From assembly GCA_943331345.2 (NCBI GenBank), contig CALQLF020000009.1:1-55766 (forward strand): a DNA stretch of 55,766 nt, in the 5' to 3' direction. Below the pieces are notes generated by a model that was not told the DNA's origin, did not search any database, and worked only from the letters and a program-made list of their open reading frames with translations. The position numbers and the translations under genes are program-made. Of this stretch, positions 26,918-32,635 are shown in pieces. Every line of letters starts with the position of its first letter. The stretch's first letter is position 1. This DNA comes from Candidatus Planktophila lacus. GTDB taxonomy: Bacteria > Pseudomonadota > Gammaproteobacteria > Steroidobacterales > Steroidobacteraceae.

Positions 26918-28150
26918 ATGAACCCTATCGTCTACGCCATTCCAGTCTTCATGGCCTCCATCCTGCTGGAGATTGTCGTCGCCCGCTGGAAGCGCGTGCC
27001 CACCTACGACATCCCGGATGCGCTCACCAGCCTGCACTTTGGCACGCTCAGCCAGACCATAGGCGCCTTCGTGAAGGTACTGGGCTTCGGTCTCTATGTG
27101 GCTGTCTATGAACGCTGGCACGCCATGGAACTGCCCGCCAATGCTTGGTGGGTGTGGGTGGCGGCGCTGGTGGTCTACGACCTCATCTACTACTGGATCC
27201 ATCGCTTCGGCCACGAAGTGAACTGCCTTTGGGCGGCGCACCAGGTGCACCACTCCTCTGAGTACTACAACCTCTCCACCGCGCTGCGGCAAAGCTCTAC
27301 GGGTGCCGTGGTGGGCTGGCCGTTCTATCTCGTAATGGCCGTAGCGGGCGTACCGCCACTGGTGTTCGGCGTAGTGGCCTTAATCGACCTGCTGTACCAG
27401 TACTGGGTCCACACCGAACTGGTGCGCAAGCTGGGCTGGTTCGACCGCGTGTTCGTTTCGCCTTCGAACCATCGCGTGCACCATGGGCAGAACGACTACT
27501 GCATCGACCGCAATTATGGCGGCATCTTCATCGTCTGGGACCGCCTCTTCGGCACGTTCCAGGAAGAGCGCGATGACGAGCCCGTGGTGTACGGCATCCG
27601 CAAGCCGCTGCAAAGCTACAACGCCGTGTGGGGCAACCTGCACGTGTGGAAAGAACTTTTCGCGAACAGTTGGCAAGCGCTGCGCCGCGGCAAGCTAGGC
27701 GATGCTGTAGCTGTGTTCTTCGCTCCGCCCGCGGGCTGGGGCCAGCACGTGGAACACCTCGACCCCGCCAGCGTGCGGCGGTTCGACACGGGCGCCCCGC
27801 GCACCGTGCGCCGCTATGCGCTGGTGCAGTACGGGCTGCTAAGCCTCTATGCCACGCACTTCATCGCTGTGGCCCCACAGCTGCCATTGGGAACGCGCGC
27901 GCTCTACGCCTGCGTTATCGCGGCAGCCACCGTGTCGGCCGGCTGGTTGATGGAAGGGCGCAAGTTCGCTCCCGCCGTGGAGGCACTGCGCTTGGTTCTG
28001 CTCGGTGGCGCCTTCCTGCTGCTGCCCGACTGGTTCGGCTGGGTGCCCACACAGCAAGTGAAGCTGGCGGTGGTAGCGCTGCTTGCTACGTCTTTGGTGT
28101 GGCTAGGCTTGGGGCTGGTGAAAGCCCCGGAAGAGTCGCCCACCCTGTAG
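26918..28150 (+). CDS. Sterol desaturase / fatty acid hydroxylase family membrane protein
   Basis: A 410-aa integral membrane di-iron oxygenase. The His clusters of the family are present: HRFGH (H95, H99), HQVHH (H108, H111, H112), an additional His165 and NHRVHH (H185, H188, H189). The C-terminal third is a further set of hydrophobic helices, as in alkylglycerol monooxygenase-like bacterial members. It probably hydroxylates or desaturates a lipid. No Shine-Dalgarno is visible; instead TATATA at 26904-26909 lies about one promoter-to-start distance from the ATG, so the message may be leaderless. REP repeats follow directly after the stop. Confidence 0.85.
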   Translation: MNPIVYAIPVFMASILLEIVVARWKRVPTYDIPDALTSLHFGTLSQTIGAFVKVLGFGLYVAVYERWHAMELPANAWWVWVAALVVYDLIYYWIHRFGHEVNCLWAAHQVHHSSEYYNLSTALRQSSTGAVVGWPFYLVMAVAGVPPLVFGVVALIDLLYQYWVHTELVRKLGWFDRVFVSPSNHRVHHGQNDYCIDRNYGGIFIVWDRLFGTFQEERDDEPVVYGIRKPLQSYNAVWGNLHVWKELFANSWQALRRGKLGDAVAVFFAPPAGWGQHVEHLDPASVRRFDTGAPRTVRRYALVQYGLLSLYATHFIAVAPQLPLGTRALYACVIAAATVSAGWLMEGRKFAPAVEALRLVLLGGAFLLLPDWFGWVPTQQVKLAVVALLATSLVWLGLGLVKAPEESPTL

Positions 28151-28279
28151 GAGCGAGCTTGCTCCCGGCCGTCGCCATCCTGTAGGAGCGAGCTTGCTCG
28201 CGACTCTTGGAATCGGGAGCAAGCTCCCTCCTACAAGCAACCCACTGCCGCTGTGGGAGCGAGCTTGCTCGCGACTCTT
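28146..28279. repeat. REP-like palindromic repeat cluster, four copies
   Basis: Copies of the element TGTAGGAGCGAGCTTGCTC(GCGAC) lie at 28146-28168, 28181-28208 and 28252-28279 in one orientation and at 28214-28235 inverted. Each contains the palindrome GAGCAAGCTC or GAGCGAGCTTGCTCGC. The cluster fills the space between two convergent genes, a classical REP/REPIN position, and its last copy touches the manB stop codon. Confidence 0.9.
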
Positions 28280-29663
28280 AATGGTCGGCGCGCACGCCAC
28301 CGCGAGCCGCGAGGAACGCCAGCACTTCGGCGGTCTTGGCATTCATCAACGCAATATCGCCACGGCTTTCCACGTTCAGCCGCAACAAGGGCTCGGTGTT
28401 CGAGGTGCGCAGGTTCATGCGCCACTCGGCGTGCGCAATGCTTACGCCGTCGGTGAAGTCCAGCTCCGCGCCGGGACCGAAATGCTCTTGCACAGCCGCA
28501 ATTACGGCCTTGGCATCCGGAATCCGCAAATTGATTTCGCCGCTAGCCGGGAAGGCAGCAATACGCTCCTGCACCAATTGGCCGAGCGTCTTGCCGGTCT
28601 GGCTCACCAACTGCGCCACCAGCAGCCAGGGCACCATGCCGCTATCGCAATAGAAGAAGCGGCGGAAGTAATGGTGCGCGCTCATCTCGCCGCCATAAGC
28701 AGCATCTTGCTCGCGCATCTTCGCCTTCATGAAGGCGTGCCCGCTCTTGCACATGACCGGCATACCACCGGCTTGCTCGGCAATAGCAATGGTGTTCCAC
28801 GTAAGGCGCGGGTCGTACAGCACCCGCGCGCCCGGCTCCTTCGCAATGAAGGACTGCGCCAGCAAACCGACGATGTAGTAGCCCTCCAGGAAGGTGCCAT
28901 GCTCGTCGAAGAAGAAGCAGCGGTCGTAGTCGCCGTCCCAGGCAATGCCGAAGTCGGCACCAGAAGAGCGCACCAACTCCGCCACGCGGCCTTGGTTAAC
29001 CACGAGCATGGGGTTCGGCACGCCATTCGGGAACGTTCCATCGGGAGCATGGTCGAGCTTCGTCCAGCGGAACGGCAGACGGCCTTCGAGTTCGTCCACA
29101 ATGAGACCAGCACCGCCATTGCCCGCGTGGCATACCAAGTGCAGCGGCTTCAACGTCGCCACGTTCACGTAGGACATGAGGTGGTCGAGGTAGTCCGCCA
29201 TGGCGTTTACGGGCGTTACTTTGCCCGGCGCTGCGGGCTCGGCAAACTCGCCCGCCTCGGCCAACGCACGGATATCCTGCAGGCCCGTGTCGCCGCTCAC
29301 CGGCTTCGACTGCTCGCGCACGAACTTCATGCCGTTGTAGTCCGGCGGGTTGTGGCTAGCGGTCACCATGATGCCGCCATCAGCGCCCAAGTGGCCCGTA
29401 GCGAAGTAGACGCCTTCCGTGCCGCACAGGCCAATGTCCTCGACATCGCAGCCTTGGTCCGTTAGACCCCGGATGAGCGCACTGCAAAGCTCCGCACTGG
29501 AAAGACGAATGTCGCGGCCAACCACAACACGCTTGCAACCCAACCAGACGGCATAGGCACGGCCGACGCGATAAGCCACGTCCGGGTTCAGTTCATCCGG
29601 AATACGCCCGCGAAGGTCGTAGGCCTTGAAACCGGAAATGCTAATGCGTCCAAGCGATGCCAT
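28278..29663 (-). CDS. manB: Phosphomannomutase / phosphoglucomutase
   Basis: Interconverts mannose-6-P and mannose-1-P (and probably the glucose pair, as in AlgC) for sugar-nucleotide synthesis. It is 461 aa. All four family motifs are visible: phosphoserine loop TASHNPPDYNG with Ser103, metal loop DGDYDR (243-248), sugar-binding GEMSAHHYF (326-334) and the phosphate-binding RTSNTEP near the C-terminus. Together with manC at 32639-34063 it would supply GDP-mannose. It is the last gene on the minus-strand side of the polysaccharide cluster. Confidence 0.93.
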   Translation of the reverse strand: MASLGRISISGFKAYDLRGRIPDELNPDVAYRVGRAYAVWLGCKRVVVGRDIRLSSAELCSALIRGLTDQGCDVEDIGLCGTEGVYFATGHLGADGGIMVTASHNPPDYNGMKFVREQSKPVSGDTGLQDIRALAEAGEFAEPAAPGKVTPVNAMADYLDHLMSYVNVATLKPLHLVCHAGNGGAGLIVDELEGRLPFRWTKLDHAPDGTFPNGVPNPMLVVNQGRVAELVRSSGADFGIAWDGDYDRCFFFDEHGTFLEGYYIVGLLAQSFIAKEPGARVLYDPRLTWNTIAIAEQAGGMPVMCKSGHAFMKAKMREQDAAYGGEMSAHHYFRRFFYCDSGMVPWLLVAQLVSQTGKTLGQLVQERIAAFPASGEINLRIPDAKAVIAAVQEHFGPGAELDFTDGVSIAHAEWRMNLRTSNTEPLLRLNVESRGDIALMNAKTAEVLAFLAARGGVRADH

Positions 29664-29717: not shown

Positions 29718-31055
29718 TCAAGCGGGTGGTGTCGAGTCCAACGACGTACTGCCCGCCACCAGCAGTTCTACCGGCCCGCGATGACTGAGGAAGCCGCGCG
29801 GACTGGCCGTGGCGCCATACGCGCCCGACATGCCGATGACGACAAAGTCGCCTTCCGACGCTACTGGCAGTTCTACACGTTGTGCGAGTACATCGAGCGG
29901 TGTGCACAAGGGACCGCAGATGGTGACAGTTTCGGTGGCAGCGCCTGACGGAAGAGTCGCGAGCAAGCTCGCTCCCACAGGAGAATCCTCTCCCTTGTGG
30001 GAGGGAGCTTGCTCCCGACTTTCTTGTGGGAGGTAGCTGGCTGCCTCTACCACTTGCACCGGGAAATTGCGACGTAACACTTGGCCCAAGTTGCCGCTGG
30101 CTGCCAAGTGGTGGTTCATGCCGCCATCGCACACCAGGAACACTTCGCCACGCGAGACCTTGCGGTCGACGACGCGAGTGACGTAGCGCCCGGCAGGCGC
30201 CACCAAATAGCGGCCGAGTTCCAGCACCAAGTGCGCGTCCGGGAAATCGGTCGCCGCGCGCACCACCAACTGGTGCAGGGCTGCGCCAATCGGCGCAAGT
30301 TCGAGCGCCTGCTCACCCGCGTGGTACGGCACACCAAAACCACCGCCGAGGTTCAACACGCGTACTGGTGCGGGTGCATGCGGCGCGAGCGCCACCGCGG
30401 AGGCATAGCAATGTTCCAGCAAGGCCACCACGGTGGCCGCGTCCAGCATCTGCGAACCGGCATAGAAATGAAAACCAGCGAACTCCACCGGGAGCGTCGC
30501 CATTAACTGCAACACCTCCGGCGCAGCTTCGGCGTCGATGCCGAACGGCCGCGGCCCGCCGCCCATGCGCTGGCCTGCACCGCGCAAGGTAATATCAGGA
30601 TTGATACGCAGCGCCACACGCGGACGAACACCAGCGGCTTGACCCGCTACAGCAATCGCTCGTAGTTCGCGAACGCTTTCGCACTGGAACAAGACAGCGG
30701 CAGCTACACCGGCACGAATGTCCTCCAGCGACTTGCCTGGGCCGGCAAAACCAATATCGAAGCCACGCGGCAAATGGCCTTCCAAAGCTACTGCCAGTTC
30801 ACCACCGGAGGCCACATCGAAGCCATCCACTCGTTGCGCGATGTATTCCACGAGGGCCGGTAACGGGTTGGCCTTCACCGCATAGTGCAGGCGCACTTCG
30901 GTGGGCAATACGGCACGCAGGGCGGCCAACTGCGCGTCAATCACGGCAGTGTTGTAGACATAGAAAGGCGTCCGTCCTGCGCGCGCCGCCAAGGCTTGCA
31001 ATTCCGTAGCCGTCTCTGCGGTGGCCACAGCAGCAGGGTTCATGCCTTCGATCAT
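29718..31055 (-). CDS. PLP-dependent decarboxylase, exosortase-A-associated type, with REP insertion
   Basis: A fold III (alanine racemase-like) decarboxylase of the ornithine/diaminopimelate type, 445 aa. Lys61 in HYAVKANP binds PLP; HFYAGSQ (196-202), LGGGFGVPYH (237-245), ELGRYLVAP and CGPLCTPLD with Cys384 complete the active site. The overall form and the partner ligase gene fit the family found with exosortase/EPS loci (TIGR03099, from memory). The ATG overlaps the ligase stop as ATGA. Residues about 337-371 (29943-30047) are encoded by REP-like repeats and replace a short linker just before the active-site cysteine. The frame is kept, so the protein may still work. The natural substrate is not known. 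Confidence 0.82.
   Translation of the reverse strand: MIEGMNPAAVATAETATELQALAARAGRTPFYVYNTAVIDAQLAALRAVLPTEVRLHYAVKANPLPALVEYIAQRVDGFDVASGGELAVALEGHLPRGFDIGFAGPGKSLEDIRAGVAAAVLFQCESVRELRAIAVAGQAAGVRPRVALRINPDITLRGAGQRMGGGPRPFGIDAEAAPEVLQLMATLPVEFAGFHFYAGSQMLDAATVVALLEHCYASAVALAPHAPAPVRVLNLGGGFGVPYHAGEQALELAPIGAALHQLVVRAATDFPDAHLVLELGRYLVAPAGRYVTRVVDRKVSRGEVFLVCDGGMNHHLAASGNLGQVLRRNFPVQVVEAASYLPQESREQAPSHKGEDSPVGASLLATLPSGAATETVTICGPLCTPLDVLAQRVELPVASEGDFVVIGMSGAYGATASPRGFLSHRGPVELLVAGSTSLDSTPPA
29952..30050. repeat. REP-like repeats inside the decarboxylase coding sequence
   Basis: An inverted copy (29952-29979, AAGAGTCGCGAGCAAGCTCG...), a direct copy (29995-30024, TTGTGGGAGGGAGCTTGCTC...) and a decayed third copy (30025-30050) match the REP family seen elsewhere in the window. 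They lie wholly within an open gene. Confidence 0.88.
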
Positions 31056-32635
31056 GCCAAACCCTTCATGGCTTGGCCCGCCTCAGCGGCAAGCATTACA
31101 CGGTCAAACTTGCCATGCGCTGTCCGCGGCAGTGCCGAGCGCCAGACGATAGCGGCCGGGTACAGATAGGCGGGCAATGCCGTACGCAATGCTTGCTCAA
31201 GAGCGTCCTGATCACTTTCCTTGGATCTCGGCGCCGTCACGAACAACACCAGTTCATGGCCCAGACGTTCATGGGGCAACCCCACCAACACGGCATCACC
31301 GACCAGCCCGGTGCTGTAAGCCACCTCCTCCACTTCGGTGGGGCTCACGCGATAACCGGACGTCTTGAGCTGGCTATCGCGTCGGCCAGAGAAAAACAGG
31401 AAACCTTCATCATTACGCCAGACGGTATCACCGGACCACACGGCGCGACTGCCTTGCATGAATTCCGGGGCAGGCCGAAAACGGGCCGCCGTGGCCATCG
31501 AGTCGCCCCAGTAGCCCTGTGCAACGAGCGGCCCCGAGTGCACCAGTTCGCCTGGTTCACCCGCGGCACATTCCGAACCATCCTCGCGCAGCACACGCAC
31601 ATCGGCATTCGGAATCGCTATACCGATACTGTCGGGGTGTTGGTCAATGTGTTCGGCAGGAAGATAGGTGCTGCGGAAAGCTTCCGTCAGGCCATACATC
31701 AGGAACACTTTCGTCCGCGGCCAATGCTGGCGTAGTTTTCCCAGTACCGCTTGCGGCAACACACCGCCGGAGTTGGTGACATAGCGCAGGTGCTCACCCA
31801 CGCTGGTCGGCCAGTCCTGCCCCACCAGTGCACTCCACAAGGGCGGCACGCCGGCCAAACCCGTGATGCTCTCGCGGGAGATGGCCGTCACCACGTCGCG
31901 GGGCAGTAGGTAGTCGTGCAGCACGACCGCGGCGCCGGAAATAAACGCGGTGGTGAACTGACTGAATCCATAGTCAAAGCTGAATGGCAGCACCGCGAGC
32001 AGACGGTCTTCCTTGGTGTTACCAAGATACTGCGCGACGCTCACAGCGCCGACACAAAGATTCAAGTGACTGAGCATGACGCCCTTCGGCCGACCTGTGC
32101 TGCCCGAGGTATAGAACAAGGCAGCGAGATGGTCAGGCCCGACCGCCGGCAAGGCAGAACCGTCTTCGAGTTCGGCGGCCACGAAGGGCAGCACACGCAG
32201 CGAAGGGGGCAACAGCGCTGGAAGTTCCGGCACGGTGTCGGCATCGACCAGCAACACCAAACGCAAGGCCGGCAGCGTTACCAACTCCGGCGCCAACTGC
32301 GCCAAGCGCGCGGCAGAAGTGACCAGCAGTACTGCGCCGGAATCCCGCAGGACATGGGCAGCCTGTGCCGGCTTCAACACGGAATTCACCGGAACGAACA
32401 CGCCGCCGGCTGCCGCAGTGCCAAAAGCTGCGACCACTTGCTCCACTTGCTTGGGCAACCAAATCGCCACTCGTTCGCCAGCTTGCAGGCCGAGCGCTAC
32501 GGCGCCGCGGGCAAAGGCCTCCACGCGCCAGGCCAGCACTCCGTAAGTGACTGGACGCCCTGCTGCCACCACCGCCACACGGTCGGGGTAGCGGTGGGCC
32601 GAGCCCAGCACCAGCGAGTGCAGGCTGGTGGACAC
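31052..32635 (-). CDS. AMP-forming acyl/amino acid ligase, exosortase-A-associated type
   Basis: A 527-aa ANL-superfamily enzyme that activates a carboxylic acid as an adenylate. The P-loop-like A3 motif YTSGSTGRPKGVMLSH, the aromatic VLPFSFDYGFSQ segment, the MYGLTEAFRSTYL motif, SGDTVWRNDEGFLFFSGRRDSQLKTSGYRVSPTE (A7-A8) and a late catalytic Lys in HGKFDR are all present. It is coupled to the PLP decarboxylase. This ligase plus decarboxylase pair is known next to exosortase EPS loci (TIGR03098/03099, from memory), where a carrier protein gene is normally close; none is visible here. Start is a GTG 3 nt after the manC stop. Confidence 0.85.
   Translation of the reverse strand: MSTSLHSLVLGSAHRYPDRVAVVAAGRPVTYGVLAWRVEAFARGAVALGLQAGERVAIWLPKQVEQVVAAFGTAAAGGVFVPVNSVLKPAQAAHVLRDSGAVLLVTSAARLAQLAPELVTLPALRLVLLVDADTVPELPALLPPSLRVLPFVAAELEDGSALPAVGPDHLAALFYTSGSTGRPKGVMLSHLNLCVGAVSVAQYLGNTKEDRLLAVLPFSFDYGFSQFTTAFISGAAVVLHDYLLPRDVVTAISRESITGLAGVPPLWSALVGQDWPTSVGEHLRYVTNSGGVLPQAVLGKLRQHWPRTKVFLMYGLTEAFRSTYLPAEHIDQHPDSIGIAIPNADVRVLREDGSECAAGEPGELVHSGPLVAQGYWGDSMATAARFRPAPEFMQGSRAVWSGDTVWRNDEGFLFFSGRRDSQLKTSGYRVSPTEVEEVAYSTGLVGDAVLVGLPHERLGHELVLFVTAPRSKESDQDALEQALRTALPAYLYPAAIVWRSALPRTAHGKFDRVMLAAEAGQAMKGLA

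Follow-up and report, generated by a model that had tools for sequence, protein, structure and literature searches.

Three REP units lie in frame inside a gene for a PLP-dependent decarboxylase and encode a long loop, and REP units fill the same site in two sister species. REPs are named for being extragenic. The gene sits in the window, by which we mean the whole stretch of 55,766 nucleotides analyzed here, and the genome to which it belongs is called the window genome below. In our judgment it is highly likely, going by the sequences, that GTAG-type REPs moved by a RAYT entered this loop in a common ancestor, that alleles with an intact frame were kept, and that the product probably works.

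The Decarboxylase Gene and Its REP Array

The gene, its neighbor and the parts of its array are these, with positions in the window.

31052..32635, minus strand: acyl-CoA ligase (AMP-forming), exosortase A system-associated (TIGR03098); upstream neighbor of the decarboxylase
29718..31055, minus strand: PLP-dependent decarboxylase, exosortase A system-associated (TIGR03099); a single open frame of 445 codons
30021..30045, plus strand: REP unit 3, degenerate, with 2 core mismatches; direct repeat copy 30023-30045; read as AASYLPQE
29991..30020, plus strand (opposite to the gene): REP unit 2, exact core, the inverted partner of unit 1; read as EQAPSHKG
29955..29984, minus strand (the gene's orientation): REP unit 1, exact core; read as VGASLLAT
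29937..30047, minus strand: long loop, codons 337-373, from loop lengths in 16 sequences and AlphaFold2 pLDDT
29892..29918, minus strand: motif CGPLCTPLD, codons 380-388, intact, downstream of the loop

The decarboxylase scores 490.5 bits against NCBIfam TIGR03099, above the curated cut-off of 478.45. Its REP cores lie at 29961-29978 and 29997-30014 (0 mismatches) and at 30026-30043 (2 mismatches), so that of the "two to three palindromes" of the original prediction two are good and one is degenerate. Units 1 and 2 form an inverted repeat whose 30-nt arms are 87% complementary. The frame is open across the array and runs on for 76 further codons beyond it. As had been claimed, the motif downstream, which we take to be the active-site segment, is intact and in frame: G381, P382, L383, C384, and D388 are invariant in an alignment of nine sequences.

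The array had been placed at 29943-30050, which is correct to a few bases; alignment with homologs delimits the longer stretch to residues 337-373 (29937-30047). Its description as Ser/Gly/Leu-rich fits only roughly, and by eye Ser, Ala, Leu, and Glu dominate.

In an AlphaFold2 model made with nine sequences the mean pLDDT is 75, and residues 340-371 fall below 50. The REP stretch is accordingly predicted to be disordered, flanked by strands 333-336 and 374-380. BtrK (7ru7) is both the best Foldseek match and the best PDB sequence match; BtrK (7ru7, 2j66) is thus the closest solved structure by sequence and by fold, GPLCTP motif included, but has 10 residues between the aligned parts where the decarboxylase has 37. 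At the level of the mRNA, the pair at 29955-30020 gives a predicted hairpin within the coding sequence (66 nt, -50.5 kcal/mol), which might form and slow translation.

GTAG-Type REPs and a Candidate Transposase

The original prediction was right to call the repeats REP-type. The window holds 15 matches to the REP core at 3 or fewer mismatches, as opposed to a mean of 0.68 and a maximum of 3 in 100 shuffles, and on this count a chance low-complexity loop was rejected. The 3.17 Mb genome contains 286 exact cores, and a reversed control gives 0. Within the family the core is present in five of 150 genomes, namely the window genome (286), its congeners G001 (22), G002 (12), and G003 (19), and one other (1). 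The repeats are GTAG-type REPs, with a palindrome and a GTAG-like tag, a high copy number, and an inverted pair. Among 50 units inside genes the tag is GTGG in 32 and GTAG in 14; among 159 other units the figures are 85 and 66.

An ordinary array for comparison also lies in the window.

28135..28282: intergenic REP array between two convergent genes

The first unit of this array (28147-28150, GTAGGAG) provides the TAG stop of ORF 26918-28150, of the fatty acid hydroxylase family.

A RAYT-like match to PF01797 was found at C19:320-541 (L048), with 28.1 bits against a cut-off of 23 bits. The ORF contains HAH and Y..NPVRAGL, and REP cores flank it at C19:74 and at 778 to 1067, so that the window genome appears to hold a RAYT gene with neighboring REPs. 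It is the only PF01797 gene found in that genome, and none was found in G001, G002, or G003 (the last being 75% complete).

The Decarboxylase Loop in Sister Species and Other Homologs

The congeners G001, G002, and G003 are taken to be the records CANIOW01, CAIOHZ01, and CALPVO02, all of them metagenome-assembled. CALPVO02 (L021) is titled Janthinobacterium lividum, and with a decarboxylase 86% identical to this genus's it is perhaps mislabeled. At the site of the array the G001 decarboxylase has one in-frame REP unit, PVGASLLAIP, and that of G002 has two, PVGAGLLATEKSAASGLPQ; the contig of G003 stops short of the site.

Loop length follows the number of units. Between the FPV and GPLC anchors there are 46 residues in the window species (three units), 37 in G002 (two), and 26 in G001 (one), whereas the same loop measures 13-19 residues, most commonly 16, in all 13 homologs outside the genus, a set that includes L018, a weaker relative (36% identical). 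The excess over 16 residues is thus +30, +21, and +10, or about 10 codons per unit. Relatives outside the genus therefore appear to lack the stretch, with absence of the REP core itself checked in G017 alone. The observation that the original prediction named as refuting it, an equal loop in REP-free relatives, did not turn up among these 13, nor did a close relative whose site is empty.

The rest of the gene behaves as a protein-coding sequence under purifying selection. Masking the loop gives dN/dS (NG86) values of 0.11 between the window genome and G002 (405 codons) and 0.12 between the window genome and G001 (394 codons). Restricted to the codons past the loop, the two comparisons yield 0.05 (71 codons) and 0.15 (61 codons), respectively. 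Such low values before and after the loop mean that the decarboxylase has been preserved as a protein on both sides of the array. The central claims of the original prediction, namely that REPs lie in frame within a working-looking gene and that they encode a longer loop ahead of CGPLCTPLD, are borne out by the open frame, the loop lengths, and these ratios.

REPs Coding in Other Genes

Two samples of the window genome, together 815 kb, were surveyed for REP clusters. Sample 1 consisted of the window and 20 stretches picked mostly for listed REPs (415,133 bases), and sample 2 of 20 stretches picked blind (400,000 bases). A cluster was called "in gene" when one frame was open across it and a codon-usage script gave a coding score on both sides. 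Automatic calls were made for 10 of 48 clusters in sample 1 and 5 of 19 in sample 2. In short stretches, mostly around congener REPs, the corresponding numbers were 2 of 14 in G001, 5 of 15 in G002, and 3 of 17 in G003. Two of the 25 automatic calls (L116 in G002 and L135 in G003) were dropped, being not REPs on reading, and the window-genome call at L088 18469-18611, which has no family match, was left out of the gene tally. L115 had no Pfam match, and L131 was excluded from the family scan.

Of the 52 clusters of the window genome that remained, 22 were set aside as convergent by their flanking coding scores and 30 were read by eye. Four of the latter proved to be in frame within genes: a glycerate kinase holds one, and the third E2-type acyltransferase holds the rest. 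The final tally is 18 of 67 clusters in frame in 16 genes (14 of 48 in sample 1, 4 of 19 in sample 2), and some of the 67 may be non-REP, as with the single genic unit at L083 1982-2023, which is unlike a REP on reading. Every one of the 16 genes either matches a known family or has an ortholog in a congener.

REP-bearing genes 1-8: the decarboxylase; three E2-type acyltransferases; lipoyl-E3; double ABC ATPase; ABC-F protein; YjjJ-like protein
REP-bearing genes 9-16: alcohol dehydrogenase-like enzyme (ADH); GluRS; TrpF; TilS; exosortase A; glucose-6-phosphate isomerase (GPI); phosphopantetheinyl transferase; glycerate kinase

Judged by their sequences, the decarboxylase and the 15 further genes can be regarded as encoding REP-decorated proteins, that is, as ORFs of known family with an in-frame REP and gene sequence flanking it. 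The original prediction had taken a REP-coding gene to be an exception, and this part of it falls: the sampled quarter of the genome has at least 16, and PMC3733652 had described GTAG REPs within genes as early as 2013.

The array lies between Pfam domains in six of the 16 genes (two E2s, lipoyl-E3, double ABC, TilS, and exosortase A); the other ten are unplaced relative to domains, apart from the loop of the decarboxylase. Reading 30 window-genome clusters by eye turned up no gene that a REP had broken; one of these clusters, at a contig end, could not be judged. Had insertions into genes been retained regardless of length, about one in three would be expected in frame, and the chance of 16 out of 16 would be near 2e-8; this figure supposes that the genes are independent and that broken genes are detected equally well, which may not hold, and it applies to a set selected mostly for its open frame. 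Units of the same orientation are a multiple of 3 apart in 14 of 16 cases in the automatic genic set versus 20 of 44 elsewhere, a weak test because the genic set was picked for its open frame.

Reading Frames

A REP unit contains no stop codon in five of its six frames, nor in any of the six when its tag is GTGG. Across the 16 genes, the 50 units are spread over five of the six frames (15, 10, 10, 9, and 6 units); the sixth, in which GTAG tags would give TAG and GTGG tags Trp, is used by none of the 50. The three decarboxylase units each use a different frame and so do not repeat any one peptide. What persists in genic REPs is the open frame rather than a peptide.

Sites of Different Age

Comparison with the congeners indicates that REP-coded sites in sister species are of different ages, some of them being altered relics. 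Each of the four species carries GSELARD or GSELARE in GluRS, and in the congeners the DNA encoding it has changed. The TilS unit is present in the window genome, altered in G002 and G003, and absent from G001. GPI has three units in the window genome and just GSSLPT in G002 and G003, and the double ABC protein has a shorter, altered array in G002 and none recognizable in G001. At several shared sites the arrays of the window genome exceed those of the congeners; E2b is the exception, with three units in G003 as opposed to two in the window genome. For ADH, two pieces from G001 (contig C49) are 88% and 96% identical to the window genome, above most pairs, so recent exchange or mis-binning is possible and the comparison of ADH with G001 is weak. 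Congeners in which no RAYT was detected still carry coding REPs, which therefore seem to outlast the detectable transposase.

Three further cases stand outside the 16-gene tally. In a beta-lactamase-like enzyme (Pfam Beta-lactamase2; L092 10808-10930), REP-like DNA encodes a hydrophobic N-terminal stretch in all four species, with an exact core in the window genome and changed forms in the congeners (L154, L149, and L144); this N-terminus is possibly the core of a signal peptide. A TPR protein (L088 5245-5426) has an N-terminus of four REP units ending VVGASLLATLLVACG, which is lipobox-like, and its orthologs in G002 and G001 differ there. A TrpC-like ORF (L047 3466-3613) extends into REP-coded C-terminal residues, directly before a TrpF with an array of its own.

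How the Array May Have Arisen

We propose that GTAG-type REPs mobilized by a RAYT inserted in the decarboxylase gene at a loop between two strands in the C-terminal part of the protein. The insertion would predate the split of at least three species and so belong to their common ancestor. Each unit would have contributed some 10 residues, stop-free in the frames used, and selection would have retained the alleles whose frame was intact. The array would later have diverged, leaving the window species with three units, G002 with two, and G001 with one, and the decarboxylase would probably still work, its loop longer, disordered, and mostly neutral. Many genes of the genus would have undergone this process, with old sites eroding like ordinary coding sequence.

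Other explanations have to be weighed against this. That the decarboxylase is dead or silent, and its array a harmless insertion in a pseudogene, is very improbable; the strong predicted mRNA hairpin would suit such a gene, but there is no internal stop or frameshift in the two species in which it could be read whole, the codons after the array are still in frame, dN/dS past the loop remains low, and the motif residues do not vary. An assembly or binning artefact is barely credible. The same gene lies on both flanks of the array, two other genomes, held as separate records, have REPs at the site, and the phenomenon is spread over many genes and many contigs, all of which count against the misjoins that repeats cause in material of this kind (the window genome is in draft form, with 184 contigs, and the congeners' records come from metagenomes). 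Each species may instead have acquired its REPs at this site on its own, with the site or a resident REP attracting insertion, a reading that we regard as unlikely. The G001 unit (L010 2557-2581) is identical to window 29957-29981 at 25 of 25 bases, whereas over the rest of the two decarboxylases the codons agree at only 143 of 303 shared amino acids (47%), so re-insertion or homogenization fits as well as plain descent. The order and orientation of the decarboxylase units vary between species, and the larger arrays of the window genome at several shared sites, E2b of G003 excepted, point in the same direction. However, with no RAYT found in the congeners (one of them incomplete) and few REPs there, repeated hits on a single site look unlikely, and the diverged relics in GluRS and the beta-lactamase-like enzyme are common to all four species.

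A further alternative is that the loop has been exapted, its REP-coded residues now aiding the enzyme through regulation, partner binding, or localization. We think this improbable. The loop has been retained in three species within a single open frame, and the hydrophobic stretch of an apparent signal peptide is built from a REP in a different gene of all four species; but the decarboxylase loop varies in sequence as well as in length, its three units are read in three frames, and the stretch is predicted to be disordered. On a wider scale, it is conceivable, if rather doubtful, that across the genus REP units of about 30 nt regularly supply new protein sequence by way of linkers and loops, multiply in frame, persist without a detectable transposase, and become ordinary protein, in some cases taking on a role like that of the signal-peptide core in the beta-lactamase-like enzyme.

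Comparison with Known Systems

Rickettsia palindromic elements, reportedly described by Ogata in 2000 and 2002, are in-frame palindromic repeats within many protein-coding genes. Likened by description, they share in-frame palindromic insertion with the window genome. Rickettsia are obligate intracellular bacteria and carry other repeat sequences. With about a quarter of one genome's sampled REP clusters coding, and sister species that hold these sites at different ages, the question of how non-coding repeats become protein is directly testable outside the intracellular Rickettsia. We would also caution annotators that masking REPs in such genomes can cut real genes. RPE-4 and RPE-6 are classed as CGTC repeats in the available text of PMC3733652.

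Two other systems can be compared from the portions of their papers that we consulted. Coxiella QMITEs (PMC5896051) resemble the window REPs in being short and mobile, with some in frame in ORFs, but they are longer MITEs and not REPs, and those in frame sit chiefly within hypothetical proteins or at the ends of genes. RAYT/REP systems (TnpAREP; PMC8266576) share the GTAG tag with a palindrome, the inverted pairs, and a Y1-type transposase gene near REPs; the REPs described there are mostly intergenic, whereas 18 of 67 sampled clusters are coding in the window genome.

The closest precedent is PMC3733652, again as far as its available text goes. In-frame intragenic GTAG REPs and "REP-decorated proteins" were reported there in 2013 from several species, with the highest number of GTAG ones in Opitutus terrae, so the window case belongs to a kind of event already described. 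REP-encoded regions of 43-82 residues are given for Thauera and R. conorii, GTAG REPs provide TAG stops, and linkers and loops are proposed as tolerant sites. Those REPs are like ours in being GTAG-type, in lying in genes of known families, and in occurring as singles, dimers, or clusters, and recB of two Xanthomonas species has REPs at about the same site. The emphasis in that text is on genes for DNA replication and repair, whereas the 16 genes of the window genome are mostly metabolic. Our search of the open-access literature found no study that follows coding REPs through the sister species of a comparable genus. Relative to that paper's available text, the present case adds another genus, the same sites across up to four species, gain and decay of units, a loop length tied to unit number, and a count of reading-frame use. 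What sets this case apart, to judge from the literature searched, is the presence of coding REP stretches at different ages in sister species.
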